Virus record (IMG/VR): IMGVR_UViG_3300021960_000304
Coordinates: 1 to 32,476 of that record
Length of the DNA: 32,476 nt
Strand: one strand, 5' to 3'
DNA from: a virus
Shown here: piece after piece, positions 3,350 to 30,748 of the stretch
Layout of the letters: each line of letters begins with the position of its first letter
Numbering within the stretch: the first letter of the stretch is position 1
The notes under the pieces: model-generated
The model's database searches: none
Told to the model about the DNA's origin: nothing
What the model saw: only the letters and a program-made list of their open reading frames with translations
Translations under genes and position numbers: made by a program

Positions 3350-3350
3350 A

Positions 3351-10856: not shown

Positions 10857-10862
10857 TTTGAA

Positions 10863-12458: not shown

Positions 12459-12481
12459 TTTTAAACAGACTCTTTTTTACT

Positions 12482-12489
12482 TATTTAGA
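12482..12489 (-). promoter_or_regulatory. late promoter variant TCTAAATA before gp8
   Basis: TCTAAATA on the minus strand spans the TAA stop of the giant gp7-type gene and lies about 24 bases before the gp8 ATG. The same octamer occurs at 31753-31760 before the 53-aa gene. It differs from TATAAATA at the second base. Both copies sit right at gene boundaries, which supports promoter function; part of the match is forced by the stop codon. Confidence 0.55.
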
Positions 12490-15400
12490 CTGGTCTTGTA
12501 CGGAAAATTTGTGGATTGGTTTGAATTCCAACAATTCCGTTATCATTATAGACATCAAATGTCTTTGGAGATCCCAAAACGCGGTTCTGATAATCATAAA
12601 TCTTACCCCAACTATAGTTTCCATAGAAAGGTAAGGTTCCACTAGAACCATTAGTATTTACACCAGAATTGGAAGCACCTCTTACATAAATTTCAACATA
12701 TTGTTCCGATTCTGATTTTGGTGCTAGATTACATGTGACAGTGGTTATTCCTGCAGATGCGCCAACACCAACCGATGTTTGTACATCTTCGACTCTATAA
12801 ACACCATCCAAGAAACTGGTTGCAGTTCCCACCTTAGAAGCAGGATAATTAACCATTCCATTTAATCCAGCAAAGGTTGTAATTCCAATAATATCATGTC
12901 CAGTTTCAACATTACTATCAGTAATAACGAAGTAGTCTCCCTTGGAAAGTTGACTATAAGTTACAGATAGAGAATTTAGTGAAGAATAACCAACACCCAG
13001 AGTTGCATTATCATAGTATTCGGATTGTAGAATAAATTCTACTTTAGGTGTTGTTGTGCCAATACCGGGTGTTCCAGTTACGAATGTATTAATTCCGATG
13101 ATTCTACCAAAATCACCAAGGGCTTTGATAGACTTAATAACTTCAGTTTTCACTGGATCTGGTTCAATTAGTACTGATGGTGGGTTGTCCTGAGAATATC
13201 CAAATCCACCATTGGAGATGGAAATAGAAGTAACAACTCCAGAAGAAACATTGGAAATAGCTGTTGCTCTGTTGAATAGTGGATCCGAATATATTGCAGT
13301 TTGAACTCCAACTGAAACATATCTACCTTCTAGTCCAACTTCTCTAGCAAATCTTATTTCATTGAGTGGTTGAGGTTGGTTGGTTGGTCTATAAATCCAA
13401 TTCAGTAAATCGAAGGAATAATACAAATCACCAGAATCATTCAAAGCAACATAGAAATCTTCATAATACAAGTCAACGATATTTCCAGGAATCAAACTTG
13501 TACCAATTAACTCAAACGAAGCTGGATCGGGAACACCAGGTTGATCTGGGAAATCAACCGTTCTTATGATTGTTCCAGCATTTCCTGCAGCAATAAATCT
13601 ATCACCAACAAATATAACTTTATTGAGTTTCTGGAAAGTCACGGATCCCAAGGTCTCCCAAATAACATTGTTTGTAGATCTTACGACAACTCCATCATCA
13701 CCAACTCCAATAATCTGTGATAATCCAGTAGCCAAACTATTCAATGTCTTTGTTGTTGCAGTAAATCTCTTCGTGAATACTGTTGTTCCAATTCCAGTTG
13801 CACCAAAGATTGAACCAAATGCAGTTGCAACTCCGACCATAGTCCAACTATCAAGGAGTGGATAGTAAATTACATCATTGATTGTCTCAATATAATTACT
13901 ATCATTATAACCAGTAACTCCCAACTGTGGTACAAAGATTTCCTCAATGATATTGATCTTATCCCAAGATGTTATTGTGTTTGCATAACCAACACTTCTA
14001 ACTGCATATCCAGATTCACCAACGGCAATGAAGATATTCGTTCCACCGCAAGAAACTTTTCCAAAATCAACAGTGTTTCCAAAACCAATAGAACCAGAAG
14101 TCCATTCAGCTGCGTCAGAACTAAACGCAAATGCACAACTGTTTCCTACAGAAACAAATACATTTCCAGTAGATACAGAATTCAATGTAAATGATGTGTC
14201 TATTCCACTAACTGTCTTCCAGTTTGAAATCGGATCTTTTCTTCCTATTGCAACTTGAGATACACTTACAACTGGATTGGATGTATATGCATACCCAATT
14301 CCACCATCAGAGATTGATATTCCAGATATTGTGGAAGCGGAGGAAACAATACAAGTTGCAATTGCTGGAGAAGTCGTTCTTGTCTCTGCAATCTTAATGT
14401 CTCTACGATCTTCTGAGAGATCATCGATATTAGTGAATAGTGGGAATGCATTGTTTACATAAACAGAAGTATCATCTTCACGAATATTATTAATTACAAT
14501 GGAGTTTGGAACTACTCTACTATTGAGGGATGGTCTAGCCTTAGAATATAGTACACCATTAATTATTCTGTCTGACTTTTGTTTCTTCCACGTCAATGGT
14601 CTGACCTTTACTGGATCAGTATTAATGCCGAGACTATTATATGTAAATGTATCAAGTTGATCTGAAGATACAATCTTCTTAACAATTCTTGCAAACTGAT
14701 CTGTATCTAAAGGATCATTTCTATTCTCATTGATTGTTATGAAGTCGCCTTCTTTTATTGTCTTTGGTGGTTCAATATCTTCAACGTCAACAGAAGATCC
14801 TCTGAAATACATGACTGTGCAGGAAGATCCTTCTTTTGGAGCCTCCTTGAAGTTTATTCTAGATCCACTGAAAGTGTAAGCTGTATTTGGAGCCTGAAGA
14901 ACATCGTTTATGTAAATAAAGATGTTATTTGTAATCTCCAAATCAGATCCCTGAGGGGTTCTCAAACTGATAACTTCTTTAACGTTATTATTGGTTATAG
15001 TCAGAGTAAATTTCTTTCTAAATCCATTGAACTGATCAGAAATATCATCAAATCTAATAAATTGTCCTGGATAGAATCCAGTAAACTTATCAGTTTGAAC
15101 TTCTTTAACTTCAAACTTAAATTCTTCGAATTGTCTGAAACTTACAATACCAGATTGAGTATAGTAGTGAGATATTGTAGAACCTGCTGATAGGAATGTA
15201 AACTGGTTGGTAGATCCAATACTTGTTACACGGAAATCATAAGCTCCATCGGTACTTACATCTGGGAATCTGAGAACTCTCTGAGTTGTAGGAACTTTCT
15301 TAGTTATAGCAACTTTTTGTGCAGTACCTCCAGAAACATAGTTATGTGCAATAGTTGAAATACCAGCATTAAATGTAAATGACTTATTAGAAGCTACATA

Positions 15401-18400
15401 GGAAACTAGGAATGTTTTACCATATGGAGAAGTTCCATCTGGGAAAATTGTAGTTGTAATTCCTGCATGTTCTGCAGCACAAGAGAATTCAAGTCCATCT
15501 AGTGTTACATAATCACCAACAGACAATCCGTGAGAAGTAGATGTTACTACTGTAGAGATACCTGTAGATTCTGTGTAGGTAAAGGTGGATACTCCAACTT
15601 GACCATATCCTAGGAAATCATGAGGAATTGTAGAAATACCAGAGTTTATGGTGAATGATGTCGATGAACCAACACCAGTTACTCTGAAAGTGTATCCATA
15701 CTCACTTGTGCCATCTGGGAAAATACTTGTGGTAATACCAAGAACAGCAGTACCACCAGAAACATAAGTATGTGCAATAGTTGAAACACCAACAAATATA
15801 TTAAACTTATTAGAAGTTGGAACACCAACGATCTCAAAAGTATCATACGCATTAAATGCGAAACTTGTTGAAGATCCAACATATGGGAAGATAGTTGAAG
15901 TAATTCCAGCAGTTGCCGTTCCACCAGAGACATATGTATGTGCAATGGTCGAAACACCTACATCAACAACAATTGTTGTGCCAGAAGTTCCCGATGTGGT
16001 TTTGAATACGTTATTTGTTCCAGTTAAAGACTTTTGACTAGAACCGTCATATGGGAACAGTGTTGTAGAAATACCAAGGGTAACTGTTCCACCAGAGACA
16101 TATGTATGATCAATAGTTGAAATACCAGCGTTGATTGTAATTGTACTTCCTGCAGTACCAGCAACAGTCTTAAAGACGTTATAAGTTCCTGCCAGTGTAT
16201 TTGGACTACTTTGTGGGTACGAACCACCAAATGTATTAATTCCTGCAGGATAGGGGAATCTAGTGGACGTTAGTCCATTTGTTACTGGTGGACAAGAAAG
16301 GATAATATCATCGACTCTTATATATTCACCAGGTTCTATTCCATGATCACCAGAAAGTGTCAATGTACAAATTCCAACAAAATTCAAATAATCAAATCCG
16401 ACAACATTAAGTGTGGAGATTCCTGTCCAAGAATTACATGCCAACTGAATTCCTTCTAGTTTTACATAACCACCAGCATCAATTCCATGATTAGAATCTG
16501 TTGTTACTGTTACTATTCCAGAAACTTCGTCATATGTGAGATTTGTTATGTTTGAAGTAGAAATTCCAAGCCAAGAATCACAACTAAACGAAATATCAGC
16601 TAAACGTGCATAGTCACCAATAGAGTATCCATGATTTGAATCAAGTATAATCGTGGTAACTCCAGCATAATTATCGTAATCAACTCCAATAATATTAAAC
16701 GTAGATCCGATACTGGTGCAACTGAATGGCAGATCCTTCAAAGTTATCATATCATTTGCACTAATTTGGTGAGGCTGAACGGTAGTTACAGTCGAAACAC
16801 CAGTGGTATTATCATAAACAAATGTGCTGATTCCTATTTCTGGCCAACCAACAAACACATGCGAAATAGTTGATACACCCGCATTCATTGTGAAGACTGT
16901 ATTACCTATTGATGCTAGTGCAGGGAATACTCTTCCGTATGGAGATGTACCATCTGGGAAGATAGTTGTTGTGATACCGGCATGTTCTTCGGCACAAGCA
17001 AATGGGAGATTGTGTAAGAATACTTCGGTACTGGTCTTATTCTCATCTACATCGGTTCTTAGTACTCCATGTGGAGAATAAGTTGTTACTGTACAGATAC
17101 CAGTTGCGTTATCATATGAGAAAGATTTAATTCCAACTTCATCATAACCACAGGTGAAGGCCGCTCCAGCAAGTCTTACAACATCATTAATTGCAAAACC
17201 ATGAACATCTGTTGTAGTAACAGTGTTTATTCCAGTGATATTATCATAAGTAAAGTTAGATATGTTTAGAATATCTGTTCTAGAACCAGATAGTGTAAGT
17301 AGATCTGGTACTTTCAAAACATCACCCACTTTATATCCAATACCTGGATCATCAATCTTGAAGGAAATTACACTAGATCCCTGACCAACAGATACTGTTA
17401 CTTTAGCGCCTTGACCAACACCAGAAGTGCCATCGGTATATGCAACACCAATATGACTATATGAAGTTGGTATTCCAATTACGACTGTTGGTACTGATGT
17501 TGTCGTGTATCCAGATCCTGGGTTTACAATTGTGAATCCAGTAATAGTTCCACTTGCTCCTACAGTTGCAGTTATACTTGCGCCAGTTCCAATTGTCGAA
17601 GCGATACTTACTGTCGGTGGAAGTCTGTATCCAGATCCAATTCCAGTAAGAACAACATCGGAAATAGTACCAGCAGCAGATACTACAACATTTGCTGCAG
17701 CGCCTAGTAATGGAAGATATCCAAATCCAGAACTCAAACTTACATTTGAAATTCTTCCGGCACTAGGAGTTCCAGATAGGAAACGTACAACGTTTTCTGA
17801 GGATCCATCTACTGTATAATCAACTCTTGGTTCTTGAACAACATTATTGATGAGTATGAATGGATTGTTATTGATTTCAACCCCACTATTAACATCATTA
17901 AACAATGCTTGAGTTGTCGCAGAATTAGATTTTAGAGTAAATTCTGTTGCGGCAATACCAGTGAATGATAAAGAAATATCATCTAGAATAATGTTCTTAT
18001 CTTTTGGTTGACTTGCATCGAATTGTCTCGACATAAATCTACCAGCAAAGATAGATCCAGTTTGGAGACCAGCTGGGCCAATCTTTCCATATGGAGGTGT
18101 TGTGAAGAAGATGGTATCTCCAGAAATATTGAAATCACCATTTAGTACTGTTACTGCAGCTCCAACTGTATGAACTCCAGAAGTCGTACCTAAGTAAGCT
18201 CTCTCTACTCCAAGTTTATCAGTTCCAGCAACTCCAATTGTCTTGATATTGATGTATTCCTGATCAATATTGAGAATATCTCCAATAACTACTGAAGATA
18301 TGCCACTTGAAATTTGGAGGATAGTTGTAGATGCACTGGAAACGGCAGAACCAAGTTCAATTTCTAGTGACTTTCTTCTAACAGCTCCTTGGATAATTCC

Positions 18401-21400
18401 ATCGATAGTAATTACCACGCTGGCATTGGAATCTTTGTACTCGAAAGAATGATCCCCAGTACCATAAGATTGTAGGTTTACAAAGACACTTGTAGATAAA
18501 CCAGAAACCTTGAAGGAGTTATCATCAATCTTATAAACAAACACAGATCCAGGTAAAGTATCCGTACCTAGAGAAGATGGATAGAATGTAATATCGTCTC
18601 CAGGAGTTACTCCACCAATATATGTTCCGGCAATAGAAACTAGTGATGTTGTTGCATATCCAGAACCACCATTTACCACAAATACTTCATCAATTCTTCC
18701 AACATTATCTCTAGTGACGGTAAATATTGCGTCTGTTCCAATTCCTGTTACTGATGAAGGAATATTGGTATACGCAGCATTTGCTTGTGGTTGAATTTGC
18801 GTTGCAGTTGTAGATGTAACAACGAAACTTAAATCATTGGTTGGAGTTGTTCCACCCATGTAAGTTCCAGCAATAGAAACAGTTTCACCAACAACAAATC
18901 CAGTACCACCAGTTTTTAACGTAATACTTGTACTTAAAGCATTACCAGTAGATGCAGAATAAGTTATTAAAACATCAAATGTTGCATTCGTTCCTGATGC
19001 ATCGCCGTTTCCGACTGCACTAGAAACTATCTTATTGGTAGGTCCTGCTGGAACAAGAACTGTAGAGATACCCACTTCAGTTCCAACATCATTATTATAT
19101 CCATTTTGAAGGATCGCTCCACCATTTACAGATCCGATTCCAGTAATAATATCAACAGATCCGGAAACATATGAAGTTGTAGCAATTCCAATTGGATCTC
19201 CGGTGTATCTGTAAATAAGTTCCTGACCAGTTTGGAAGTTGTGATTTGGTAGTGTAAAAGTATTATTTTCTAGATTTATTACTGCTGTACTTAGTCCACT
19301 GAAATCCCTCTTGAATAGTGGGAATCCATTATTCTTCAATTTAAATGTTGACAATCCAACAATACTTCCACCCCTAGTTAAAGATGGATATGTAACTTCT
19401 GGGGCGAATCCAGTACCCAATCCAATTATTGTAGTAATAATTCCAACATAACTCGCTAAAGAAGCTCTAACATCTGCACAATCAGTATCGCCGAATGTAG
19501 TTGTTGGAATTCCAGCAAGACTTCCAGAATCTATAGCGGAAGTTAGAATTCCAACTAGGTTGGTTATATTTGTTTGAATGTTAGAACAAGAATTAGGATC
19601 AGTATTAAATCCTGTTACTGGATCTGCAATAATTGTTAGATCCTTAACATTCAACTGATTAGTAATGGCTTTCTTAGAATAATCCCTTAGTGCATGGAAT
19701 GCATAAATTGATTCCGATTCTTCGCCAAGAAGTCCAGTGGTTAAAGCAATACCTGCTCCAGTAAAGTATTTCTTAGTTGCATAAACAATATGTTGATTTG
19801 AACCATAAGCAATATCCTGAGCAACTGCATCTAGGATATAACCAAGATCACGATAACACTTAAGTCCACCAGTAGTATATGTGCCAACATTCTCAATCGG
19901 AAGAGTCGTTGTATTTCCAACTTCTACAGCAATTGTTACTAGAGAGGTCAAGGATATAATATTATTCTGGACATCTTGACAAGCATTTGTAGCAGTATTG
20001 GGAACTGTAGATCCTACACCCACAACTGGAGAACCAGGAGTAATACTTAGATCTTTTACAGTTAAACCATTTCTAACTGCTGATCTCATCAAGTCTCTAG
20101 CTTGATTAAAAGCAACAATAGACTGAACTTCTTCACCGACCAATCCGTTGGAAATTGGGTTACCAGCGCCATCAAAGTATTGTAATACAAACTCTCTAGA
20201 ATACTTGTTACCACCAGTAAAGATATCTGTTGAGATTGCATCAACAAAATATCCAATATCACGTTTGCACTTAGACTCTGTTGAAGAAACTTCTGGATGG
20301 ATGAGAATCATGTTATTCCATGCAGTAGTAACAATCTCATCTCTATTGAGTTGAATCAATCTATATGCATCATAATAACGTGATCTTTCTTGACTTTGTG
20401 GATCTCCTGGGAAGTAGAAATCTGGATATCCTATTGCTATAGAAGCAAGAGACTTGTCCAAAATTTCTCTCTTATTGCTTAGAATTAGATTTCTAGCATC
20501 TTTGTTTCTGAAGAGATCTGGATTTTCTGGATCTTGAATTAGATTATAATTGAAAAGTTGATCTACAGAAGACTGATAAAGAGTTGGTGGAGTTTGATTA
20601 TTGATTATGTATTGACCAATAAACTTAACATAGTTGTATGCAAATAGAGTTTCTTCAGACTCGTTAGAAACATAAGAAGCGCCAGCGTTCCAATATGCTA
20701 AACCAGCCTCTACAGATTTGTTATTTGAATTGTACTTCAAATCATGGGATACTGCATCAACAATAAATCCAGTATCTCTAAAACACTTATCTCTGCTATA
20801 ACTAGAACTTGAGGTAATATTTGGATAGTTAAATTCAACAAATGCAACAACTTCTGATTGAATAAACTCCCTGTTAAGATCTAGAAGATCTGAAGCATCT
20901 GCATATCTTCCTCTCAAATATTGAACTGCAGTTCCATCGAATTCACTAGAGATATCATCAATTTCCAAAACTTTGTTAGTTTTGTTCAGAATATAGTTTC
21001 TAAGAGCAACTCCTTCTGTGAAGAACACTCTCTCTACAGAACCATCTTCCAAGAAGTCTTCTTCATAAACCAGAGCAAAATTATTTCTCTGAGAAACATC
21101 AGACTCCGAATCAAGATTTACTAGGAATGAAGATTGATTATCGAGAACTCTTGGTTTTAAAGTTGTTGTTCTACCAATACCGCTATCGGTTGCTTTTGTA
21201 TAAATTTCAAGGTCGGAGAATTCTTTAAATCCAGATGGGTGTACAATAGATCTAACTGACTCTCTCCAAATATTGTATGGGATTGTACCTTTAATAGAGT
21301 ATGAGAACTTCTGATAGTAGAAGTTATCAGATATTCTTTGTTGGAAATCATTTAGAATGCCTACAGCCTTATCAATTTGACCAACTTTATCTCTAGATAC

Positions 21401-24400
21401 TCCAAGAGTAGATTCCAATTGGAAAGTATCGAAATACTCTACAGTTCCAGTAATTTTTGATGTTTCACCAGTTATCTTGTCACCCACATTCAGGGTTCCA
21501 AAAGATTCAGATATTCTTAACTGATTAAGATCATTATCCCAACCATTTTCCATGGTTAATCCAATGAAATCAGTTGTAGTTACTCTTTCTTTCGAGAAGT
21601 ACTTGACATCATCGGCAAGGATCATTTCATAAACCGGCATGTCCTTCTTGTTCACAACATAACCAAGAGTTATATCCGAATCATATGTACCAAAACCGCC
21701 AGTAGAAATACCAGCCATACTATAAGTGATGGTCTTATTATTTTCATCTACAGAAGTTAACTTAAAGAACTTATATCCATATTTGTCAGAGTTATAGTTT
21801 GCAAGACCCTGATTATATGAGGTTTTTGTTAATCTGCATGATTCAACAAATACTTCATCGCCAATTTTGAATGGGAATTGAGATATAGTGCTTCCATATC
21901 CGATTGGAATAAAGTTTTGTGTGAAAAGTTCAAGAGTTACAAAGTTTCCATTGACGGTGATATTGTCAATATCATACCCATTTGAATTATATACACTATA
22001 AATTTGAAGTGGATCTACAAGATTAGTGACGTTTTGTAGAACGTCTACAGAAGTTACTGACCCACCAGTAACTTTTGCTGATAACTTAATATTAGTATTA
22101 TCTTTTACAAATAGTTGCGGTGCGGTATTATATCCTCTACCACCAGTGACAATTCCAACATAATCGATTGTTCTAATATCTTTAATGCCAACCACAGTTG
22201 GTACACTCAAAGATGGAGTTAGTGTTGGATCAGTTGGATAATCAAATCCATCTTTAACTCTTTCATATTCTTCAACTCTTCCTATTTCTGGGGAGACTAG
22301 TTTAATAACCGCGTTCTTACCTGATTTGGTATTAAATCCAGTAACTATTGGTGGAACAGCATATCCCTTTCCACCAAAATTAATTTTCATAGATTTAATA
22401 GGACCACTCGAAGTCTTCGAGTTTGTATCATAACTCAAACCAGTTGGAACATATGAAGCAACTTCTTGAGAAGTAGACTTTCCTCTCAAGTTTATACTAA
22501 AAGTTGTAGGATCTACAGTTTGAATATCGAAAGATCTTTGTAGAATGTGATTCTTGACTACAATCTTGTTATTTCCAACTACATCGGTATCAGAAGAAAT
22601 TTGTATTTTTCTTTCGTCAATAGGACTCTTTGGAACTAATGTATAGAATAGTTGAGATGGGAAAGTATCTACATTTGTGGTTAGAGATACATATGCTTCA
22701 GATGTTCCAGGAGTACCTTCTCTTCTGATTGCAAATGAACTTCTTGTAGCCCCGATCAATTCTATTCTCTTTTGGAAGGTTCTATCCTCAAAGAACTGCA
22801 ATTCCATATCAACTAGACTTGAGTCTGAGATATCAAATTTTAGAACATCATTTTTTACAATGACTATTGGAGGATTAATTAGATATAGGTAATGTGTTCC
22901 AGAACCGGGAGAAGTTATATTAATATAATTTGATTGGTTAACATCAGAAAGATATTCACAAAGTCTTATATTATTTTCACTGTACTTAAGTACAAAATAT
23001 GTTTTATTATTACCTAAACCATTTACTTCGGAAGTAGATCCATAGTAAATGACTTTATCACCATTCTTTAATGTATTTCCAATAATCTCAATACTATTAG
23101 TAGAATTGTCAATATCAGAAAAACTGAAGTTGACATCATCTACAACAACCTTTCTAAGACTCTCATTATATAATAGTTTTACAGTCTTTTGTTGATTATT
23201 TGATATAGTAAATTCAACAATATCACCGGAAGAAAGTTCATGATTTTCGGTTGTAGTAACAAACCCGACGAATCTTTCTATCTTTCCAGTTAGTTCGCTT
23301 TGAAGTGTTTTCAATGAGTGAGCGAATCCAACTAGACCGAAAGAGGAATCGAAGTTGACAAACTCCAAACTATTATTTGAAGTTCCAATACCTGATGATG
23401 TAGTAAATCCAAGAGTGGAAATTCCTATGAAGTCTCTGCCGAGATTTACTGCATAGACAACACTATTATCTGGAATAATAAATGATACAGCACTACCAAC
23501 ATTGTTTACTACTAAACTAGTTCCGCCAATACCACAACTATAAATTAGTTCTTGTCCAGTATAGAACTTATGTCCAGGAATATAAATTGATCTTGCAGGA
23601 ACAAATCTGGTGGTGACGGTACTTGTTCCAATACCAACTATAGATCTAACTGATCCTTGGGTTCCAGTTCCAACTGTTTCTTTTGGATCAAAATATGTTG
23701 TATAGTTATACTGTGTTATTTGTTTACCTGGTTCTTCAGTTACAAAAGAGAATTTGATCGGTAACAAAGTAACATCATCAATTCCTGCAGTATGTAATCC
23801 AGTATTTGCGATTCTGTTTACATACAAACGTGATCTTGAAGAATCTACTCTTGTTACTCGTAGTACTTCTGTTCCAATTCCAACATAATCATCTGGGGAG
23901 AATCCCGAAGTATCATCAACAGTAAGATGAGTGCTGAATCCAGTATTTACTTCCAGATCAACATCTTCAACCAAATCAACTGTTTTATTAGAAACGGAAA
24001 CTTTTCTAATTCCATCTAAGTATGAGAATCCAACAGTAGATATTCCAGAAACTAGAACATACTCATTATCACTTAGATTATGTGGTTCCCCGTATTTGCC
24101 TTCAACAGATCTCTTGTTAACAGCAAATTTAATATCTGATAGGGTTGTATCTACTACAGAAAACTCATCGATTTCCTTACCTTTTAGTTTGGATACAACT
24201 ATATTGGCAGAAGAACCAGCAGAATTCTGAGGATTTACTTCTAAGTAATCGCCAACTTTATATCCAGTTCCAGCTGAGAATACTGCAACTGATGATATTC
24301 CAGAACTTCTTGTTGAAGAAACTGTAAATTCTTGTTTGAACAAATCTAAAATCTTATCGATCAAATCATAATAAGATTCTTTGTAAGTTAAGTAATATGG

Positions 24401-27400
24401 AGCAACGTTTCTACTAACACCAAAAGATTCAAAATTAATGTTTTGGTTGAAACTTGGTAGGAAGTTTTCCTTTACTGGAGTGCTCTTAAACTTAGAACCG
24501 ACAATGTATGGGTACTGTGGTTGGGCTGTTCCAGAAGAATCTATACTTACACTAACAAAATATGCATAAACTCCATTAGGATACTGTGGAGTAATACAAT
24601 ATCTTCCATTGTACTCATCAAGATCACCAGTTCCAGTAAAGATATAATCATTTGTAAAATATCCTGGTGGATATGATGGTGGTCTCTTTCCACTTGTAAG
24701 ATCTGGATTGAGGATATAACCGGTCTTTACTTGTCTAACCAATCCACCAGCATATGGATCATAACCGTATGGTCCATAAATTGGATTTCCATCATAAGCA
24801 AATCCCAAAATTGGTGAGTGGGACAATGAAGATCCTTCTATTCCATATTGATCAACATTGTCACTTAATTGGAATCTAAGTTGTTTTGGACAGTAGAAAT
24901 TTACGTACTGCAGTCCAAGAGATGGGTTTTTACTTGGATAAGTAATTCCCTCATCACCACCATCAAGGAGAACTGTAGATTTTACTACTTGATTTACCTT
25001 CCATTCTCTTACATTTGCTAAGAATTTTGCACCAATTCCTCTGTTTAAAATGGTTAGAGTAGTGTCCGATGAACCATATCCAACTCCAGAATTAATTATC
25101 TGCACAGAAACAACAGATCCATTATCTATAGTTGGTACAATTTCTGCAAAATTTCCACTACCATAAACATAGATATCGGAATCTTTTCTATATCCTCTAC
25201 CTTTGTTGATTATCTTTACGTCAATAATATTTCCATTTAGTACAATTGGTTTCAGAATACATTCTGAAGTGATGCTTGATACACCAACTTCTGGTCTTCT
25301 GTGATAGTTTAAAATATTTGTACAACCATAACCAACACCACCTTTCTCCAAATAGATGTCAGAAACAGAACCAAGAACAATAGGTTCTAAAACTGGAGAA
25401 ACCAATGATGTTGATCCAATTCCGGCAAGAGATTCAACCCTAATTGATATTGGTGGATATCCAATAATATGAGTACCAAGACCAATACTATCGAGTTTTA
25501 TAAATTTATTTGCTAAGTAATTCTCTTCAACTATGTTTGTAGAAACACCAGCATAAGCTAACTTGAACTTATTTGTATCAATTACTTTTACTTTATAGTA
25601 ATTTGTAGTTGTTAATCCGGTTATTGGAACTTCAGTAGAAGAATATGTGACTACTTCACCAGATTTAAATCCATGATTTGTGGCAAAAATATAAGAATCA
25701 TATGTATTAATGCCAACATTATCAGAATAAGAAAGTTCTGATGGAACATATACTTTTCTATTGGAATATCCACTACCGGATTCTTTTACATATACTTCTG
25801 TAATGGTGTTTTTACTCTTAAGAGTTTCAATTTTATGAAGTCCAGAACTTATTCCGGTTATGTTTACATTATTAACTTTGTTTATAGCATCTAAAGAATT
25901 ATTATATAACTTAATTTGTTTTGCACTTAGTATTCCAACATAGTAATGAGAATTATCTACTAAACCGACAATATCGTTATTTGCATTAGAATTGTAAATT
26001 ACCTCTTCACCATCATCAAAATTATGATTAGTCAAAAATGTGATGGTATCACTTGGTAAATCTACAGCACTCTCTGGTTTAAATTCTGCACGTAATCTTG
26101 TCTTGACTAGATTTGACTCCAATATACATCCACTTCCATTTCCACCAGATATGGAAATCTTTGGTTTATTCTTATATCCTACTCCAGGACTCACTACTTT
26201 TATCTTTTGTACTGAACCAAGAATATTCAAATGAGCTTTAGCATCAGATCCAGTAGAATCATAAATTTGAACTTCTGGTGGATTTATTACATCGTATCCA
26301 CGGCCGCCATTAGTTACACTTATGGAAGTAATATCACCAAAAAATACGTTTTCATCGAATAGTGTCGGTGATAATACCTCTACTCCATTGATGAGTAATC
26401 CAATCTCCCTATTATTTGTTGTTCTTTCGTTTTTGTCATCAAATACAAAAACACTTCTATCAAGATTAAACTTCTTTAGTAATTTTTGATGTTTTAAAGT
26501 TTTAAATTCATATCCAGATTTCCAGGTATAGTTTCCACTGGAAGGATTGCCTACGATGAATTTTTTGGTAAACAAATCATTCTTACTGAATGATAAAGAG
26601 AAATTGTTCTCGTCAATTTTAGTTAGGAAATAAGTTCCAGTATTAATACCAGAAACTGAACTGTTTTCTGGCAAATAGAAAACAGATTCACCAGTAGTAT
26701 ATGGGTGGTTTGGTGAATAAAGTAAACTTGTACTTGCAGTACCTACTACAGAAACTGAACTCTTTGTATCCTTACCAAATAAAGTGTAATTTGGAAGTCC
26801 AGATGATGTTACGTATAGAGTTTTTGAATCGTTACTTATGTAAGTATTTTGTACTCCCGATGGAATATTACTTAGTCCAGAAAAATAGTTTGAATAATGA
26901 TTGGCCTTGATAATGACCTTCTTAATATTCTTGGAGTCAGTAATAGTAAAACCACTTTGAGAGACTTGAATTAGAATTCTATCAGTATACTTTCTTACAT
27001 CATCTCCAGTATCGAATTCAACTCCAATTACAGTACATTCTGAAGTTTGTCCAGATTCATTTTCAAGTACTAACTTTTCTCCTTTATAGAAACTTATCTT
27101 ATCAAAGAAATATAATCTAAACTTATTTTCATCCTGTTGAGAAATTGATTTGATATTATGTTTTGTTGGGACATTATAAATCCAGTTATTGAATTCAAAC
27201 CTATCACCAAGATCTTTACCGAATCCAGATAATTTAATTTTATCTCCTACTTTCAAATTTGATGTCTTTGAAAAATCAATATTGTCAATAACGTTGACAA
27301 TTCTAAACTCTACTTTAGAAGTATTTCCTACACCAATATAACTATAAGCAAACTTTTCTTCTACAATATCGAGTCCATATCTAAGAGGAACTGTTACTCC

Positions 27401-28480
27401 AGATACACCCAGAAATTGATTGGATGTTTTATCAGTATAGGTTAGAGTTATATAATTAGAATTTTCTGGTTTTACTAGAATTTGACCAGAATCCGAGAAT
27501 CCAATTGTTGAATCGACAAGAATATTATGTTGACCAACTTGAACTTCTTCCAGAATTCTTGTTTTTCCAGTTACTTGGAAGACTCCATCAAAAGAAGTTG
27601 AGTCTAAAGACAATTCATAAAACTGTTTGTCATAAACTGGTCTATATTCAACATTAAAGATAGAAGCACTAATAGTTGAAAGACCAACAATGTCTTGGTA
27701 TAAGAAATTACCTCTTGTTAAAACTGGATCTCCACCAGATATTTTCTCAACAAGAATATTTTTAGTAGTAAAATAAGAATTGGAAGAAGGAACTATTGTA
27801 TAATCTTGTGGCTTGATGATATCAATATCAACCCCATACAAGATTTTAAAGAGAACTTTATAAGAAAGATCTGTTCCCTTGGATCTATAGAAATCACTTC
27901 CCCTTGATAAAATGTTTTGTATGTCAATACCAGTTGCGAATTCTCTTCCTTCAAATCCAGGCAGAAACTCCGACTTATATTTTATGAAAAACTCTTTAAG
28001 GAAAAGATTACTTAGATTATATACAACATCTCCAGAAGAGTGTTCTTCAGAACTAGTATCTTTGAATTCTAAGAACTCTGTATTAGAATCCGATTTTATC
28101 TTGTCAATTCCACTAAATCCTCTGATACATCCTTTGAAGGAAGTAGTTGTCTTACTTTTATAAGTAATAATCTCATTATTAACTTTTAATAATCCGTAAG
28201 TTTCTGGAAAACCAACTGTACTTCCAACACGAATTTCAGTATCAAATGCCAATACATCCGAAGTCAGAACAGTATCTGAGGATAGGTTTTCGGAAGTAAA
28301 ACTAGATATATTTTTATAATCTACTATGTTGAGTGCTAAATCTGCAGCTCCAGATTTACTTTCTAATGAAGTATAGTACTGAAGTAAGAACTCTCGAAAT
28401 AGAGGAGAATCCTCATTAAGAAACTCTGGAATCTGTGATTCCAGGACATCGATTATTTTAACCTTCTTGATATCCGACAT
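12485..28480 (-). CDS. 7: giant baseplate wedge protein, gp7 type (5331 aa)
   Basis: An uninterrupted 5331-residue reading frame between gp6 and gp8, the position of gp7, the central wedge protein of T4 (1032 aa). The N-terminus (VLESQIPEFLNEDSPLFREF, LLQYYTSLESKSG, then FFIKYKSEFLPGF and YRSKGTDLSYKVLFKILYG) is the form I know from marine T4-like gp7. Beyond about residue 300 it is a mosaic: GGxGY beta repeats (about 17 along the chain), HxFxTGExVxY modules, a YHYH-like domain (about 1190-1315), helical CxRD modules (about 2526-3027), two interleaved seven-copy repeat families (about 3741-4444), a YINDVLQAP module (about 4490-4570) and a propeller-like domain (about 4739-5071). There is no signal peptide or transmembrane helix. 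The ATG is one base past the gp6 stop, with a weak GAGA site. The wedge role rests on synteny and N-terminus; the extra modules may be surface-exposed and possibly host-contacting. No frameshift or stop is seen. Confidence 0.85.
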   Translation of the reverse strand: MSDIKKVKIIDVLESQIPEFLNEDSPLFREFLLQYYTSLESKSGAADLALNIVDYKNISSFTSENLSSDTVLTSDVLAFDTEIRVGSTVGFPETYGLLKVNNEIITYKSKTTTSFKGCIRGFSGIDKIKSDSNTEFLEFKDTSSEEHSSGDVVYNLSNLFLKEFFIKYKSEFLPGFEGREFATGIDIQNILSRGSDFYRSKGTDLSYKVLFKILYGVDIDIIKPQDYTIVPSSNSYFTTKNILVEKISGGDPVLTRGNFLYQDIVGLSTISASIFNVEYRPVYDKQFYELSLDSTSFDGVFQVTGKTRILEEVQVGQHNILVDSTIGFSDSGQILVKPENSNYITLTYTDKTSNQFLGVSGVTVPLRYGLDIVEEKFAYSYIGVGNTSKVEFRIVNVIDNIDFSKTSNLKVGDKIKLSGFGKDLGDRFEFNNWIYNVPTKHNIKSISQQDENKFRLYFFDKISFYKGEKLVLENESGQTSECTVIGVEFDTGDDVRKYTDRILIQVSQSGFTITDSKNIKKVIIKANHYSNYFSGLSNIPSGVQNTYISNDSKTLYVTSSGLPNYTLFGKDTKSSVSVVGTASTSLLYSPNHPYTTGESVFYLPENSSVSGINTGTYFLTKIDENNFSLSFSKNDLFTKKFIVGNPSSGNYTWKSGYEFKTLKHQKLLKKFNLDRSVFVFDDKNERTTNNREIGLLINGVEVLSPTLFDENVFFGDITSISVTNGGRGYDVINPPEVQIYDSTGSDAKAHLNILGSVQKIKVVSPGVGYKNKPKISISGGNGSGCILESNLVKTRLRAEFKPESAVDLPSDTITFLTNHNFDDGEEVIYNSNANNDIVGLVDNSHYYVGILSAKQIKLYNNSLDAINKVNNVNITGISSGLHKIETLKSKNTITEVYVKESGSGYSNRKVYVPSELSYSDNVGINTYDSYIFATNHGFKSGEVVTYSSTEVPITGLTTTNYYKVKVIDTNKFKLAYAGVSTNIVEENYLANKFIKLDSIGLGTHIIGYPPISIRVESLAGIGSTSLVSPVLEPIVLGSVSDIYLEKGGVGYGCTNILNYHRRPEVGVSSITSECILKPIVLNGNIIDVKIINKGRGYRKDSDIYVYGSGNFAEIVPTIDNGSVVSVQIINSGVGYGSSDTTLTILNRGIGAKFLANVREWKVNQVVKSTVLLDGGDEGITYPSKNPSLGLQYVNFYCPKQLRFQLSDNVDQYGIEGSSLSHSPILGFAYDGNPIYGPYGYDPYAGGLVRQVKTGYILNPDLTSGKRPPSYPPGYFTNDYIFTGTGDLDEYNGRYCITPQYPNGVYAYFVSVSIDSSGTAQPQYPYIVGSKFKSTPVKENFLPSFNQNINFESFGVSRNVAPYYLTYKESYYDLIDKILDLFKQEFTVSSTRSSGISSVAVFSAGTGYKVGDYLEVNPQNSAGSSANIVVSKLKGKEIDEFSVVDTTLSDIKFAVNKRSVEGKYGEPHNLSDNEYVLVSGISTVGFSYLDGIRKVSVSNKTVDLVEDVDLEVNTGFSTHLTVDDTSGFSPDDYVGIGTEVLRVTRVDSSRSRLYVNRIANTGLHTAGIDDVTLLPIKFSFVTEEPGKQITQYNYTTYFDPKETVGTGTQGSVRSIVGIGTSTVTTRFVPARSIYIPGHKFYTGQELIYSCGIGGTSLVVNNVGSAVSFIIPDNSVVYAVNLGRDFIGISTLGFTTSSGIGTSNNSLEFVNFDSSFGLVGFAHSLKTLQSELTGKIERFVGFVTTTENHELSSGDIVEFTISNNQQKTVKLLYNESLRKVVVDDVNFSFSDIDNSTNSIEIIGNTLKNGDKVIYYGSTSEVNGLGNNKTYFVLKYSENNIRLCEYLSDVNQSNYINITSPGSGTHYLYLINPPIVIVKNDVLKFDISDSSLVDMELQFFEDRTFQKRIELIGATRSSFAIRREGTPGTSEAYVSLTTNVDTFPSQLFYTLVPKSPIDERKIQISSDTDVVGNNKIVVKNHILQRSFDIQTVDPTTFSINLRGKSTSQEVASYVPTGLSYDTNSKTSSGPIKSMKINFGGKGYAVPPIVTGFNTKSGKNAVIKLVSPEIGRVEEYERVKDGFDYPTDPTLTPSLSVPTVVGIKDIRTIDYVGIVTGGRGYNTAPQLFVKDNTNIKLSAKVTGGSVTSVDVLQNVTNLVDPLQIYSVYNSNGYDIDNITVNGNFVTLELFTQNFIPIGYGSTISQFPFKIGDEVFVESCRLTKTSYNQGLANYNSDKYGYKFFKLTSVDENNKTITYSMAGISTGGFGTYDSDITLGYVVNKKDMPVYEMILADDVKYFSKERVTTTDFIGLTMENGWDNDLNQLRISESFGTLNVGDKITGETSKITGTVEYFDTFQLESTLGVSRDKVGQIDKAVGILNDFQQRISDNFYYQKFSYSIKGTIPYNIWRESVRSIVHPSGFKEFSDLEIYTKATDSGIGRTTTLKPRVLDNQSSFLVNLDSESDVSQRNNFALVYEEDFLEDGSVERVFFTEGVALRNYILNKTNKVLEIDDISSEFDGTAVQYLRGRYADASDLLDLNREFIQSEVVAFVEFNYPNITSSSSYSRDKCFRDTGFIVDAVSHDLKYNSNNKSVEAGLAYWNAGASYVSNESEETLFAYNYVKFIGQYIINNQTPPTLYQSSVDQLFNYNLIQDPENPDLFRNKDARNLILSNKREILDKSLASIAIGYPDFYFPGDPQSQERSRYYDAYRLIQLNRDEIVTTAWNNMILIHPEVSSTESKCKRDIGYFVDAISTDIFTGGNKYSREFVLQYFDGAGNPISNGLVGEEVQSIVAFNQARDLMRSAVRNGLTVKDLSITPGSPVVGVGSTVPNTATNACQDVQNNIISLTSLVTIAVEVGNTTTLPIENVGTYTTGGLKCYRDLGYILDAVAQDIAYGSNQHIVYATKKYFTGAGIALTTGLLGEESESIYAFHALRDYSKKAITNQLNVKDLTIIADPVTGFNTDPNSCSNIQTNITNLVGILTSAIDSGSLAGIPTTTFGDTDCADVRASLASYVGIITTIIGLGTGFAPEVTYPSLTRGGSIVGLSTFKLKNNGFPLFKRDFSGLSTAVINLENNTFTLPNHNFQTGQELIYRYTGDPIGIATTSYVSGSVDIITGIGSVNGGAILQNGYNNDVGTEVGISTVLVPAGPTNKIVSSAVGNGDASGTNATFDVLITYSASTGNALSTSITLKTGGTGFVVGETVSIAGTYMGGTTPTNDLSFVVTSTTATQIQPQANAAYTNIPSSVTGIGTDAIFTVTRDNVGRIDEVFVVNGGSGYATTSLVSIAGTYIGGVTPGDDITFYPSSLGTDTLPGSVFVYKIDDNSFKVSGLSTSVFVNLQSYGTGDHSFEYKDSNASVVITIDGIIQGAVRRKSLEIELGSAVSSASTTILQISSGISSVVIGDILNIDQEYINIKTIGVAGTDKLGVERAYLGTTSGVHTVGAAVTVLNGDFNISGDTIFFTTPPYGKIGPAGLQTGSIFAGRFMSRQFDASQPKDKNIILDDISLSFTGIAATEFTLKSNSATTQALFNDVNSGVEINNNPFILINNVVQEPRVDYTVDGSSENVVRFLSGTPSAGRISNVSLSSGFGYLPLLGAAANVVVSAAGTISDVVLTGIGSGYRLPPTVSIASTIGTGASITATVGASGTITGFTIVNPGSGYTTTSVPTVVIGIPTSYSHIGVAYTDGTSGVGQGAKVTVSVGQGSSVISFKIDDPGIGYKVGDVLKVPDLLTLSGSRTDILNISNFTYDNITGINTVTTTDVHGFAINDVVRLAGAAFTCGYDEVGIKSFSYDNATGICTVTTYSPHGVLRTDVDENKTSTEVFLHNLPFACAEEHAGITTTIFPDGTSPYGRVFPALASIGNTVFTMNAGVSTISHVFVGWPEIGISTFVYDNTTGVSTVTTVQPHQISANDMITLKDLPFSCTSIGSTFNIIGVDYDNYAGVTTIILDSNHGYSIGDYARLADISFSCDSWLGISTSNITNLTYDEVSGIVTVTTDSNHGIDAGGYVKLEGIQLACNSWTGISTLNVVGFDYLNFVGICTLTLSGDHGIEPGEYIRVDDIILSCPPVTNGLTSTRFPYPAGINTFGGSYPQSSPNTLAGTYNVFKTVAGTAGSTITINAGISTIDHTYVSGGTVTLGISTTLFPYDGSSQKSLTGTNNVFKTTSGTSGTTIVVDVGVSTIAHTYVSGGTATAGITSTIFPYVGSSTSFAFNAYDTFEIVGVPTSNKFNIFVGVSTIAHTYVSGGTAVLGITTSIFPDGTSEYGYTFRVTGVGSSTSFTINSGISTIPHDFLGYGQVGVSTFTYTESTGISTVVTSTSHGLSVGDYVTLDGLEFSCAAEHAGITTTIFPDGTSPYGKTFLVSYVASNKSFTFNAGISTIAHNYVSGGTAQKVAITKKVPTTQRVLRFPDVSTDGAYDFRVTSIGSTNQFTFLSAGSTISHYYTQSGIVSFRQFEEFKFEVKEVQTDKFTGFYPGQFIRFDDISDQFNGFRKKFTLTITNNNVKEVISLRTPQGSDLEITNNIFIYINDVLQAPNTAYTFSGSRINFKEAPKEGSSCTVMYFRGSSVDVEDIEPPKTIKEGDFITINENRNDPLDTDQFARIVKKIVSSDQLDTFTYNSLGINTDPVKVRPLTWKKQKSDRIINGVLYSKARPSLNSRVVPNSIVINNIREDDTSVYVNNAFPLFTNIDDLSEDRRDIKIAETRTTSPAIATCIVSSASTISGISISDGGIGYAYTSNPVVSVSQVAIGRKDPISNWKTVSGIDTSFTLNSVSTGNVFVSVGNSCAFAFSSDAAEWTSGSIGFGNTVDFGKVSCGGTNIFIAVGESGYAVRSVGYANTITSWDKINIIEEIFVPQLGVTGYNDSNYIETINDVIYYPLLDSWTMVGVATAFGSIFGATGIGTTVFTKRFTATTKTLNSLATGLSQIIGVGDDGVVVRSTNNVIWETLGSVTFQKLNKVIFVGDRFIAAGNAGTIIRTVDFPDQPGVPDPASFELIGTSLIPGNIVDLYYEDFYVALNDSGDLYYSFDLLNWIYRPTNQPQPLNEIRFAREVGLEGRYVSVGVQTAIYSDPLFNRATAISNVSSGVVTSISISNGGFGYSQDNPPSVLIEPDPVKTEVIKSIKALGDFGRIIGINTFVTGTPGIGTTTPKVEFILQSEYYDNATLGVGYSSLNSLSVTYSQLSKGDYFVITDSNVETGHDIIGITTFAGLNGMVNYPASKVGTATSFLDGVYRVEDVQTSVGVGASAGITTVTCNLAPKSESEQYVEIYVRGASNSGVNTNGSSGTLPFYGNYSWGKIYDYQNRVLGSPKTFDVYNDNGIVGIQTNPQIFRTRPV
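13270..14265 (-). other. propeller-like domain in gp7 (about residues 4739-5071)
   Basis: This part of the giant protein repeats a blade-like pattern: hydrophobic-FVSVG or FIAVG, a short turn, then S or T with D and a Trp near the blade end. Clear copies contain NVFVSVGNSCAFAFSSDAAE, IFIAVGESGYAVRS, IIGVGDDGVVVRSTNNVIWE, RFIAAGNAGTIIRT, FYVALNDSGDLYYSFDLLNW and RYVSVGVQTAIYSD, about six in all plus a degenerate one. This resembles BNR/Ycf48-like beta-propellers, which often bind glycans or proteins. A receptor or glycan contact is inference only. Confidence 0.6.
15150..17260 (-). repeat. two interleaved seven-copy repeat families within gp7
   Basis: Residues about 3741-4444 are built of two alternating repeats. 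Type A reads TGIxTVTTxxxHGLxxGDYVxLxGLxFSC and ends each time in cysteine; I count seven copies. Type B reads GITTTIFPDGTSxYG, then FxVxxVxS, then AGISTIxHxYVSGGTA; I also count seven. Three type B copies end at DNA starting near 15752, 15920 and 16089, a spacing of 168-169 bases (56 codons), with closely similar nucleotides around the YVSGGTA codons. Copies near 15440 and 16945 are also similar at DNA level. Tandem duplication within the gene is the simplest reading. Confidence 0.88.
19400..20905 (-). other. three helical CxRD modules in gp7 (about residues 2526-3027)
   Basis: Three repeats carry KC(F/K/Y)RD(T/I/L)G followed by a hydrophobic residue and (V/L)DA(V/I), then an acidic-polar stretch with NxxS or NxxI, AYWNAGAS or YFxGAG, a GxxxEE-type turn and a helix with AFxxxRDxxxxA. 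The second and third continue with LTVKDLSI / LNVKDLTI and a cysteine-containing helix (CQDVQNNI, CSNIQTNI). The first two are preceded by LDLNREFI / IQLNRDEI. The Cys codons lie near 20797, 20275 and 19860. The predicted helical nature contrasts with the beta-rich chain on both sides. I recall such modules from marine phage giant proteins; function unknown. Confidence 0.75.
24540..24910 (-). other. YHYH-like domain in gp7 (about residues 1190-1315)
   Basis: The segment contains SPILGFAYDGNPIYGPYGY, then a Pro/Tyr/Gly-rich stretch, LDEYNGRYCITPQYPNGVYA and YFVSV, ending in YPYIVGSKF. This order (GxAYDGxPIYGPYG, LDExNGR, YxYxxx, YPYxxG) is that of the YHYH family. The signature YHYH tetrad itself reads YAYF, so the histidines are missing. 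It lies inside an otherwise repeat-filled part of the giant protein. The role in phage is unknown. Confidence 0.75.
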
Positions 28481-28481
28481 G

Positions 28482-30350
28482 TTATCTCGTATAGTTTCCG
28501 TTTAAGTAGCTTGAAGTTGGTGTAAACAGAGTAGCAGATGTATTCTCACCAGAAGTAATAATATCTTCAATAGCAGTGACGTTAGAATTACTAATATCTA
28601 TCTGCAAATATAATTCTTTCAATCCAATAATATCATTAGATTCTGGAATTGCTTGGATTTCAAGTAATCCATTAGTGGAGTTAACTCCTGTTATATTTAC
28701 CACATCCAGAAGAAGGTCGCCAGTAGTATAATTTATAGTTCCAGCGTTACTTTTAACTACAACTGGAACATTATTTTCAATCTTAAAGAAGAACAGTCTT
28801 CCAGTAGTATCAGTTAATTGTTGATCAGCCATGTAGATTGGTTCTTGAACACCATCAATATAAAATCCATTGGACTTAATTGAGTATCCACCCTTTCTAA
28901 TATGAACTTTATTACCAAAACAAATCTTATATGTAGCAAAAGAATTAAGTTCTGGAGCGATATCCAATCTCATCTTCACTTTAGTAATGTTTGATGTTAT
29001 AGCCAAATCACTACTATCAATTAAAGCATTAACTTTACTATACTTGAATCTTCCACCAAAACTGTTAAGGTCTACAGAATTTGCATATGAAGTCAAAGTA
29101 TTTAATACTTTTGTTCTCAAAATTTGAGCATCACTAGTTTGGTTCTTATTATAGTAAATTGTAGTATCTAGTTCAATGTAAAGGTACTTAAGATCTATAA
29201 TTTCTGGTTGTATTCCAGCAATAGAATATTGTTTCAAATCTCTCAGAATATCACTCTTAGTAATTTCCGATAAGAAAGTACCATTTCTTGGTTTTATGGA
29301 GAGATAGACTTTTCCATAAACTGGAGGATCCAATTCCTCTCCACCATAAGCATTAACAGATTCCACGTTTGGATAGATATATGGTATCAGTCCCTTGTAG
29401 TCGTTAGCCGTAACCGCCCTATACTGCGATGCATAGACCTTGGGCGCAAGGTATTTAACTGAGTCGATAGATTCTATGGAATCCCCGTTAGAAGACTTCT
29501 CAGTGGTTCTCAAGAGGGATATACCAGTTGTAATTGAATTTAGATTATTGTCCTTTAAAACTCCAGAGAAAGTGAAGTTACTCGCTCCATTACCTTCTCT
29601 GCCATTTGTAACAACATAAGTGACGGTAACGACACTTCCTGAAGTAGGTCTCTTTCCAAGAATATTGTCACCAAATCTTATCTCATATCTTTCATCGGTT
29701 ACTTCCTGAATGAAGAAGACTCTAGAACTAGAGTTAATATTAAGAATATTTGAATAAACAGAGTAGACTTCAGTTACTTGATCTCTTACAGAAACACGAA
29801 TTGTAGAAGAGTCAACGTTGGAGTTTGGAATTATGAATCTTTGGTCTGGAAGACTATCGTTAATAACAAAAGTACTTGTTAGAAATGTTCCTTCATACAT
29901 TTCTAAATTTTCAAAACTAGCAATACCATTAATATCTACAGGAGTTGTTATGTCCTCTGGTATTGAAAATATATAATTGCCATCTTCTACAGCACCAAGG
30001 GCACACTGACCTGCCTGTACTTTTACAGTTCTTGCTTCAGTTCCACTAACATCTACTGTGAAACTTACCTTTGCTTTTGCAGCCCTCTTTGATCTAGGTA
30101 AATAACCAATATTTCTGGCAAGAGCAACAACATTTTCTCTAAGAGTTGCGCTATCAAGAAATACTTCATTAACTGCCATATTAGTGTTAAAGGCAGTTAT
30201 GTAACTATTATAGGCTAAAAGATCAATCAGAGTCGAAAAGTTCGATCCCTCAAAATCGAAATCAGTAAAGTTACTGTTAGATCTTAAGTAGTCTTTGATT
30301 TGAGTCCTTAGATTATTAAAATCTAAATTCGTAAACTGATTGAAGGACAT
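28482..30350 (-). CDS. 6: baseplate wedge subunit gp6
   Basis: A 622-residue protein, close to T4 gp6 (660 aa). The N-terminus (MSFNQFTNLDFNNLRTQIKD, FEGSNFSTLIDLLAYNSYIT, AVNEVFLDSATLRENVVALA and NIGYLPRSKRAAKAKVSF) is the hallmark of gp6 in T4-like cyanophages. A central part has VTDERYEIRFGDNILGKRP and VTANDYKGLIPYIYPNVESV, the region related to baseplate J-like proteins, then YGKVYLSIKPRNG. In T4, gp6 forms the ring of linked wedges around the hub together with gp25 and gp53. The gene starts at an ATG that overlaps the gp25 stop by one base (TAATG), so the two are probably translated in a coupled way, and it ends one base before gp7. Confidence 0.95.
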   Translation of the reverse strand: MSFNQFTNLDFNNLRTQIKDYLRSNSNFTDFDFEGSNFSTLIDLLAYNSYITAFNTNMAVNEVFLDSATLRENVVALARNIGYLPRSKRAAKAKVSFTVDVSGTEARTVKVQAGQCALGAVEDGNYIFSIPEDITTPVDINGIASFENLEMYEGTFLTSTFVINDSLPDQRFIIPNSNVDSSTIRVSVRDQVTEVYSVYSNILNINSSSRVFFIQEVTDERYEIRFGDNILGKRPTSGSVVTVTYVVTNGREGNGASNFTFSGVLKDNNLNSITTGISLLRTTEKSSNGDSIESIDSVKYLAPKVYASQYRAVTANDYKGLIPYIYPNVESVNAYGGEELDPPVYGKVYLSIKPRNGTFLSEITKSDILRDLKQYSIAGIQPEIIDLKYLYIELDTTIYYNKNQTSDAQILRTKVLNTLTSYANSVDLNSFGGRFKYSKVNALIDSSDLAITSNITKVKMRLDIAPELNSFATYKICFGNKVHIRKGGYSIKSNGFYIDGVQEPIYMADQQLTDTTGRLFFFKIENNVPVVVKSNAGTINYTTGDLLLDVVNITGVNSTNGLLEIQAIPESNDIIGLKELYLQIDISNSNVTAIEDIITSGENTSATLFTPTSSYLNGNYTR

Positions 30351-30748
30351 TAGATTCTAGTTGGTTGAAGAATGAAATCTATAGTTTGAGTTGGAACTGG
30401 AAGTCCAACAATATCATATTCAATAGTAATGTATAATTCATTAGTATCTTCTGGATACGTCACTAAAACAATAGAGTTCACGATTCTTGGTTCGAAATTT
30501 TTCAAGAGAGTTTTTATTTCATCTTGAAAAACGTATGCATTTCCTGCATCTTGTTGTTCGAACAAAGAATCGTAAACTCTTGTGCCAAGATATCTATTGT
30601 AAAACCTTTCACCAATCCTAGTTCTAACTAGATTTGTTACAGATTTTTTAATCGCATCAGCGTCATTGAGAGATATAATATCATTAGTTACAGGATTTCT
30701 AACAAATGACAGACTAATATCTTTAAATTTGCGAGAAATCGTTGCCAT
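30350..30748 (-). CDS. 25: baseplate wedge subunit gp25 (GPW/gp25 family)
   Basis: A 132-residue protein, the same length as T4 gp25. It shows the GPW/gp25 fold markers: KFKDISLSFVRNPVTNDI, DADAIKKSVTNLVRTRIGER and YLGTRVYDSLFEQQ, then LLKNFEPRI and a final beta pair ending in IDFILQPTRI. The RTRxGER motif with the downstream LG is diagnostic. In T4, gp25 sits in the inner wedge ring with gp6 and gp53 near the first sheath layer; the T6SS counterpart is TssE. The gene leads the gp25-gp6-gp7 block behind a late promoter. The leader is very short and the ATG has only TTTGGGTA before it. Confidence 0.95.
   Translation of the reverse strand: MATISRKFKDISLSFVRNPVTNDIISLNDADAIKKSVTNLVRTRIGERFYNRYLGTRVYDSLFEQQDAGNAYVFQDEIKTLLKNFEPRIVNSIVLVTYPEDTNELYITIEYDIVGLPVPTQTIDFILQPTRI

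Follow-up and report, generated by a model that had tools for sequence, protein, structure and literature searches.

A phycobiliprotein-like cassette in the very large, split-core gp7 baseplate protein of a T4-like cyanophage

The baseplate wedge protein gp7 of phage T4 (PDB 5HX2/5IV5) occupies the slot between gp6 and gp8, is 1032 aa long, and carries a FYxSKGxxxSYKxLFKxLY core segment followed by a KxxxPxxxWxxxVxxxVHPxGF segment, both in its C-terminal third and 105 aa apart. The minimal gp7 homologue described from phage XM1 is 242 aa, with a loop inside the core domain (80-106) and a C-terminal tail (201-242) that attach the tail spikes (PMC10457771). The bilin lyase CpeT of cyanophages has so far been assigned a role at the host antenna (PMC10452541, PMC2984593), and the known T-type lyases (CpcT/CpeT) target Cys-155 rather than Cys-84 (PMC2327270).

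The window analyzed in this study is the whole of a 32,476-nt (32.5-kb) viral record of a T4-like cyanophage (IMG/VR IMGVR_UViG_3300021960_000304), in which a giant gp7 is encoded on the minus strand together with the following baseplate genes:

12485..28480, minus strand: giant gp7 (baseplate wedge subunit), 5331 aa; matched in slices along almost all of the chain by PHROG 2885 "baseplate wedge subunit"
28482..30350, minus strand: gp6 baseplate wedge, upstream of gp7; PHROG 219, E 4.5e-201
30350..30748, minus strand: gp25-like baseplate wedge, upstream of gp7; PHROG 261, E 5.5e-46
10863..12458, minus strand: gp8 baseplate wedge, downstream of gp7; PHROG 438, E 3.6e-158

The frame starts with ATG and has zero internal stops and zero N. 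The synteny of gp25, gp6, gp7, and gp8, with strong PHROG matches, bears out the gp7 slot proposed in an earlier sequence-only reading of this DNA, and the position between gp6 and gp8 is that expected of a T4 gp7 member. The nearest relative of the protein is that of the isolate S-SCSM2R (48% identity over residues 1-4251 and 43% over 3927-5329), which is a single collinear frame of 5172 aa, so that an assembly error fusing two genes can be ruled out for the 5331-aa frame. Downstream of gp8 lies a gene for a 2501-aa protein (window 3351-10856) matching PHROG 358, of unknown function, whose relatives are named VrlC or DUF4815 protein, and just upstream of the baseplate genes is the end of a Nol-like carbamoyltransferase gene (31745-32476). 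Rfam and tRNA searches gave no matches, a DNA near-match search of phages returned a 63-base match only, and a PDB search with the single sequence gave no match for either half of the protein.

The size of this gp7, which had been put forward as unusual, proves to be ordinary for the Kyanoviridae and was dropped as a novelty. Taken from annotation or open frame, single-frame gp7 slots in this family range from 1942 to 6603 aa: S-H34 1942, S-CAM1 3032, S-CAM9 3884, S-SRM01 3895, S-B05 4024, Bellamy and SynMITS9220M01 4067, DSL-LC03 4107, S-SCSM1 4120, S-SM2 4156, ACG-2014f 4225, P-TIM68 4307, S-CAM7 4314, P-HM1 4446, Sf-CH5 4878, S-SCSM2R 5172, P-SSM2 5195, the window 5331, Syn9 6076, S-ShM2 6198, and P-RSM4 6603. 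The sequence-only reading itself had said that homologues of the same length and module order in most cyanophages would make the protein ordinary; for size this is the case, and three homologues exceed it. The frames of these three (6,076-6,603 aa) are very long among phage proteins and carry no annotation beyond "structural" or "virion structural protein." In the virion of S-CREM2, a gp7 of 1937 aa was represented by 91 unique peptides that cover 27% of it (PMC10665884). In five isolates the slot is split, as 3007+340+3001 aa in S-SSM7, 2995+341+2492 aa in Sf-FS3, 2514+1432 aa in DSL-LC02, 2845+1081 aa in B23, and at least four overlapping frames in S-SKS1 (NC_020851.1, locus 8968-21360), where sequencing error or decay is possible. 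In both S-SSM7 (23054-24076; N-terminus MSKQGISTGSAPNDG) and Sf-FS3 (23018-24043), the inserted 340-aa gene interrupts gp7 at the identical position.

Comparison with T4 gp7 and with these relatives gives the following map of the chain, from its N-terminus:

27761..28480, minus strand: gp7 core, first part (residues 1-240; 189-222 align with T4 gp7 726-759); hmmsearch E 1.4e-7, hhalign 94% to T4 gp7
21302..27814, minus strand: internal arm between the core parts (residues 223-2393) with GxGY, HxFxTGE, and YHYH modules; collinear in all Kyanoviridae gp7 compared
24545..24823, minus strand: YHYH domain (residues 1220-1312); Pfam PF14240, E 4.1e-19
21224..21301, minus strand: gp7 core, second part (residues 2394-2419), aligning with T4 gp7 864-889 by hmmsearch and hhalign
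19376..20932, minus strand: phycobiliprotein-like cassette of three CxRD modules (residues 2517-3035); comparison with relatives, model, and profiles
17261..18571, minus strand: conserved block (residues 3304-3740), present in most gp7 relatives
18206..18232, minus strand: point (residues 3416-3425) of the chain break and 340-aa fiber-like gene insertion in S-SSM7 and Sf-FS3, from comparison with relatives
15131..17263, minus strand: variable tandem A/B repeats (residues ~3740-4450), from comparison with relatives
14231..15133, minus strand: conserved block (residues ~4450-4750), from comparison with relatives
13301..14230, minus strand: residues 4751-5060, earlier labeled propeller-like; no family match
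12488..13285, minus strand: conserved C-terminal block (residues ~5066-5331); end of PHROG 2885, E 6e-25, aligned in most relatives

Homology to gp7 was confirmed using profile A5, built from the initial part of cyanophage gp7, for which the best match in the whole PDB was T4 gp7 (E 8.7e-7, T4 residues 727-758). The match of the second part to T4 gp7 is weak (hmmsearch E 0.0086 against 0.025 for the best of 2000 shuffles; hhalign 59%; 38% identity), but it is collinear with the first part, in the order found in T4. The earlier description of a gp7-like N-terminus therefore holds for the first core part and fails for the core as a whole, which a conserved insertion of ~2,170 aa divides in two, the second part lying at residues ~2394-2419. 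The spacing between the core segments is 2,172 aa in the window and 105 aa in T4. In PHROGs 17744 (765 aa) and 26741 (497 aa), which also match the two core parts, the insertions between them are smaller. In S-H34, the second core part is found at 1810-1894 of 1942 aa and the chain ends soon after, so that the arm and the tail must have expanded separately. By analogy, these would occupy the same two places as the loop and the tail of XM1.

The mosaic of modules described from the letters alone was also borne out, by Pfam for YHYH and by comparison with shuffled sequences for the GxGY-type (20 observed, 3.2 in shuffles, maximum 13), HxFxTGE-type (7, 0.03, maximum 2), and CxRD sites (3, 0.04, maximum 2). 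The tail that follows the second core part is a mosaic of ~2,900 aa. Most relatives share blocks 1-2516, 3304-3740, 4450-4750, and 5066-5331, while 2517-3035, 3740-4450, and 4750-5060 are variable; repetition is indeed seen in the A/B tandem stretch (~3740-4450), which differs between relatives, and residues ~4750-5060, which had been called propeller-like, match no Pfam or PHROG family.

The first of these variable stretches is absent as one piece from S-SSM7 and Sf-FS3, in which its flanks are joined by about eight residues. The same modules, with up to 55% identity to the window, are carried by fiber genes of other cyanophages, which identifies the stretch as an exchanged cassette. Within it, the following domain and cysteines are distinguished:

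19922..20473, minus strand: module 2, a predicted complete phycobiliprotein fold (residues 2670-2853); AlphaFold pLDDT mostly 80-96 here, VIA-align Z 15-17
20783..20785, minus strand: Cys2566, CxRD of module 1; alignment of relatives
20267..20269, minus strand: Cys2738 of module 2, at the position of bilin-binding Cys-84; HMMER alignments, KCKRDIGYF against KCARDIGYY of phycocyanin alpha
19979..19981, minus strand: Cys2834, first residue of the last helix of module 2; invariant in alignment A1, model helix 302-321, aligned ranges
19856..19858, minus strand: Cys2875, CxRD of module 3; C, R, and D invariant in 20/20 relatives

An AlphaFold model of the 498-aa cassette built from 20 sequences has a mean pLDDT of 80.8 and a pTM of 0.75. 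Among the 50 matches listed from each search of the PDB with this model, all are phycobiliproteins, with Foldseek probabilities of 0.98-1.00 (E only ≥0.08) and VIA-align Z of 15.4-17.1; the superposition on phycocyanin beta (2vjr_B) is 2.0 Å over 132 residues, model positions 137-320 corresponding to window residues 2670-2853, and the best VIA-align chain is 8u0f, entitled "bacterial fluorescent protein." A profile of the module searched against all PDB sequences likewise matched phycobiliproteins in 53/53 cases, with a best E of 1.1e-4 and KCxRDxGY aligned to the Cys-84 bilin site; for a profile of the whole region this was 17/17. The Pfam family PF00502 (Phycobilisome) scores 22.4 bits in one slice of the window and 22.0 in another, around its cut-off of 22.2, and matches 13/20 relatives (best E 2.6e-6). 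In the converse search of 23 whole phage genomes, PF00502 matched only at these modules, above the cut-off in 4/23, and of 14 control genomes only Synechococcus elongatus was positive. Taken together, the model, fold, profile, and converse searches indicate that module 2 is a complete phycobiliprotein-fold domain: as modeled, it has the globin-like fold of that family, and it shares sequence homology with it. What the sequence-only reading had noted as "CxRD helices" corresponds to residues 2534-3031, and whilst the three CxRD sites are there, the phycobiliprotein fold (Z up to 17; profile 53/53) had been missed. Modules 1 and 3 share the sequence of module 2; folded alone, module 3 reached a pLDDT of only 38.

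It could be argued that this is an ordinary giant gp7 and nothing else, in which a short helical motif has converged on the phycobiliproteins, as the single-sequence scores near the cut-off (22.0-22.4 bits against 22.2) and Foldseek E-values no better than 0.08 would allow. Convergence of this kind seems very improbable given a profile E of 1.1e-4 with every match in one family, superposition of the whole domain, and a converse search that finds these modules only. In most phages the domain scores no higher than the Pfam cut-off, which would explain its being overlooked. A phrase search of open papers found no account of a phycobiliprotein fold in virion proteins, though an earlier report is still possible. 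Against viral models, Foldseek gave 24 matches with E <0.001; those with names are from cyanophages or uncultured phages and are for the most part tail or structural proteins. The only cellular genome sequences found with the domain are three contigs (FZLS01000008, 12, 13) of the metagenome bin Rhodobacteraceae bacterium Water_Bin34, which are probably viral.

Cys-84 is the universal bilin site of phycobiliproteins. The equivalents of Cys-84, Arg-86, and Asp-87 are present in all three modules of the window, and among 54 module copies from 13 phages the Cys is found in 50/54, the Asp at +3 in 51/54, and the Arg at +2 in 39/54, the Arg being replaced in a CxDD subfamily. In relatives not selected on the motif, the C and R of CxRD are both kept 53 times, both lost 7 times, and never lost singly; invariance of C, R, and D in a further alignment (A2) was left out as evidence, since that alignment had been selected by the CxRD motif itself. 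About three quarters of CxRD copies have a second Cys, in the form C[ATS][DN][VI], 87-103 residues downstream. In module 2 this is Cys2834, which is followed by 19 more residues of the aligned domain and, on the model, is probably the equivalent of beta Cys-155. A structural disulfide between the two cysteines is not supported, as they vary independently, and retention of the second where the first is lost argues against any obligatory bond between them.

These patterns make it quite possible, at somewhat less than even confidence, that the Cys/Asp site of the cassette binds bilin in at least some of these phages. To our knowledge, no cyanophage virion has yet been observed to carry a bilin. 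The chief rival reading is a helical module without pigment, for protein-protein contact, stacking or trimerizing as phycobiliproteins do, in which the Cys and Asp are structural. This is a credible reading that we hold open as a substantial possibility: the modules are mixed with other modules in fibers, the Cys is lost in some copies, and the Asp at +3 persists in module 2 where C and R are lost. It fits less well with the joint and never single loss of C and R in the unselected relatives, and with the behavior of the other cysteines, which do not covary with the CxRD Cys and so provide no obligatory disulfide partner. A further argument against it is that CpeT was found only alongside the domain.

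Across the 28 isolates searched whole, the domain occurs in 16 and CpeT (PF06206) in 10, all of which are among the 16: CpeT is present in 10/16 carriers and in 0/12 non-carriers (Fisher p 6e-4), leaving 6/16 carriers without it. When the four records picked because they have the domain are left out, the figures become 6/12 and 0/12 (p 0.007). S-PM2, P-HM1, and S-CAM1 are among the isolates with both, while S-SSM7 and P-SSM2 have no such domain. On a gp8 tree, the possession of both is scattered, with at least 5 changes for 6 rows, and among phylogenetically independent pairs, too few (5) to give the test power, none opposes the link and about 2.5 favor it. Bilin reductases show no association with the domain (p 1.0). 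In S-PM2, S-RSM4, S-CAM1, and S-CAM3, the distance between cpeT and a domain-bearing fiber gene is about 1-2 kb, for which shared ancestry is a possible reason; in S-CAM3 (NC_031906) cpeT is at 18150-18653, upstream of the module-bearing short-tail-fiber gene at 19718-30739, and the order is likewise in the other three. The domain is a candidate acceptor, within the virus itself, for the phage-encoded bilin lyase CpeT. The preference of the known T-type lyases for Cys-155 over Cys-84 counts against bilin attachment at the CxRD site, although about three quarters of CxRD copies do retain a Cys where the last helix starts.

Homology with host antenna proteins would also suit a mimic, a domain that docks on the host phycobilisome or on bilin-handling proteins during infection and has no role in the virion. 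This appears improbable, as the domain sits in long virion-type genes (gp7 and tail fibers) of the isolates seen, and also occurs in P-HM1, which infects Prochlorococcus, a host without phycobilisomes (PMC2984593).

Several cyanomyoviruses adsorb in a light-dependent manner (PMC2984593), and for P-HM2 no adsorption takes place in darkness (PMC7112961). Its near relative P-HM1, the record of which is filed under the species Eurybiavirus PHM2, has the domain in two genes, one of them gp7, and also has CpeT. In the 2010 work of Jia et al., S-PM2 is reportedly among the light-dependent phages. It may be, although we regard this as unlikely at present, that virion bilin on the phycobiliprotein domains of baseplate and fibers, partly attached by CpeT, is the light-responsive element of host attachment. 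If so, a light-responsive virion pigment would explain both the bilin and lyase genes of cyanophages and their light-dependent adsorption, for which the phycobiliprotein-like domain offers a concrete molecular candidate.

Overall, the locus probably encodes an ordinary very large Kyanoviridae gp7 with a split core, an outward arm and tail, and a phycobiliprotein-fold cassette that may bind bilin in at least some of these phages. Two short core segments would form the conserved (gp6)2-gp7 wedge core, with the ~2,170-aa arm looping out between them and the ~2,900-aa mosaic tail coming after, and both arm and tail would most likely extend outward from the baseplate for host contact, as suggested by the spike-holding loop and tail of XM1. 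At its start the tail has a removable cassette with three CxRD modules, one or more of which is a complete phycobiliprotein fold. The cassette was most likely captured long ago from the host antenna family and then spread through tail fibers and gp7, and its retained Cys/Asp site may still bind bilin in at least some of these phages. We infer both the outward location and the direction of capture. The earlier idea that gp7 carries large peripheral extensions is plausible, and these may form an appendage absent from T4. The split core suggests a site at which contractile phages can add large host-contact arms with the wedge undisturbed, as with the spike-holding loop in XM1.

In comparison with known systems, the phage modules resemble phycobiliproteins (PF00502; phycocyanin, phycoerythrin, and allophycocyanin/smURFP) in the globin-like fold, the K-C-x-R-D-x-G-Y of helix E at the Cys-84 site, and a second Cys starting the last helix, but differ in having 12-20% identity to them and in standing in tandem within a virion structural protein. 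The "short tail fiber" proteins of cyanophages (PHROG 4527, S-PM2 T4-GC 830, and the S-CAM1 tail protein) contain the same modules, at no more than 55% identity to the window; those are separate fiber genes, whereas the modules of the window are in gp7. With the giant gp7 of other Kyanoviridae (P-SSM2 5195, S-SCSM2R 5172, Syn9 6076, and P-RSM4 6603 aa), this gp7 shares the N-terminal 2,500 aa and the conserved tail blocks, which are collinear in P-SSM2 and S-SCSM2R, whereas cassette content varies and the slot is in several frames in S-SSM7, Sf-FS3, DSL-LC02, B23, and S-SKS1. With T4 gp7 it shares the slot and both core segments in the same order, but here the first of these lies at the N-terminus, 2,172 aa separate them, and a tail of ~2,900 aa comes after them.
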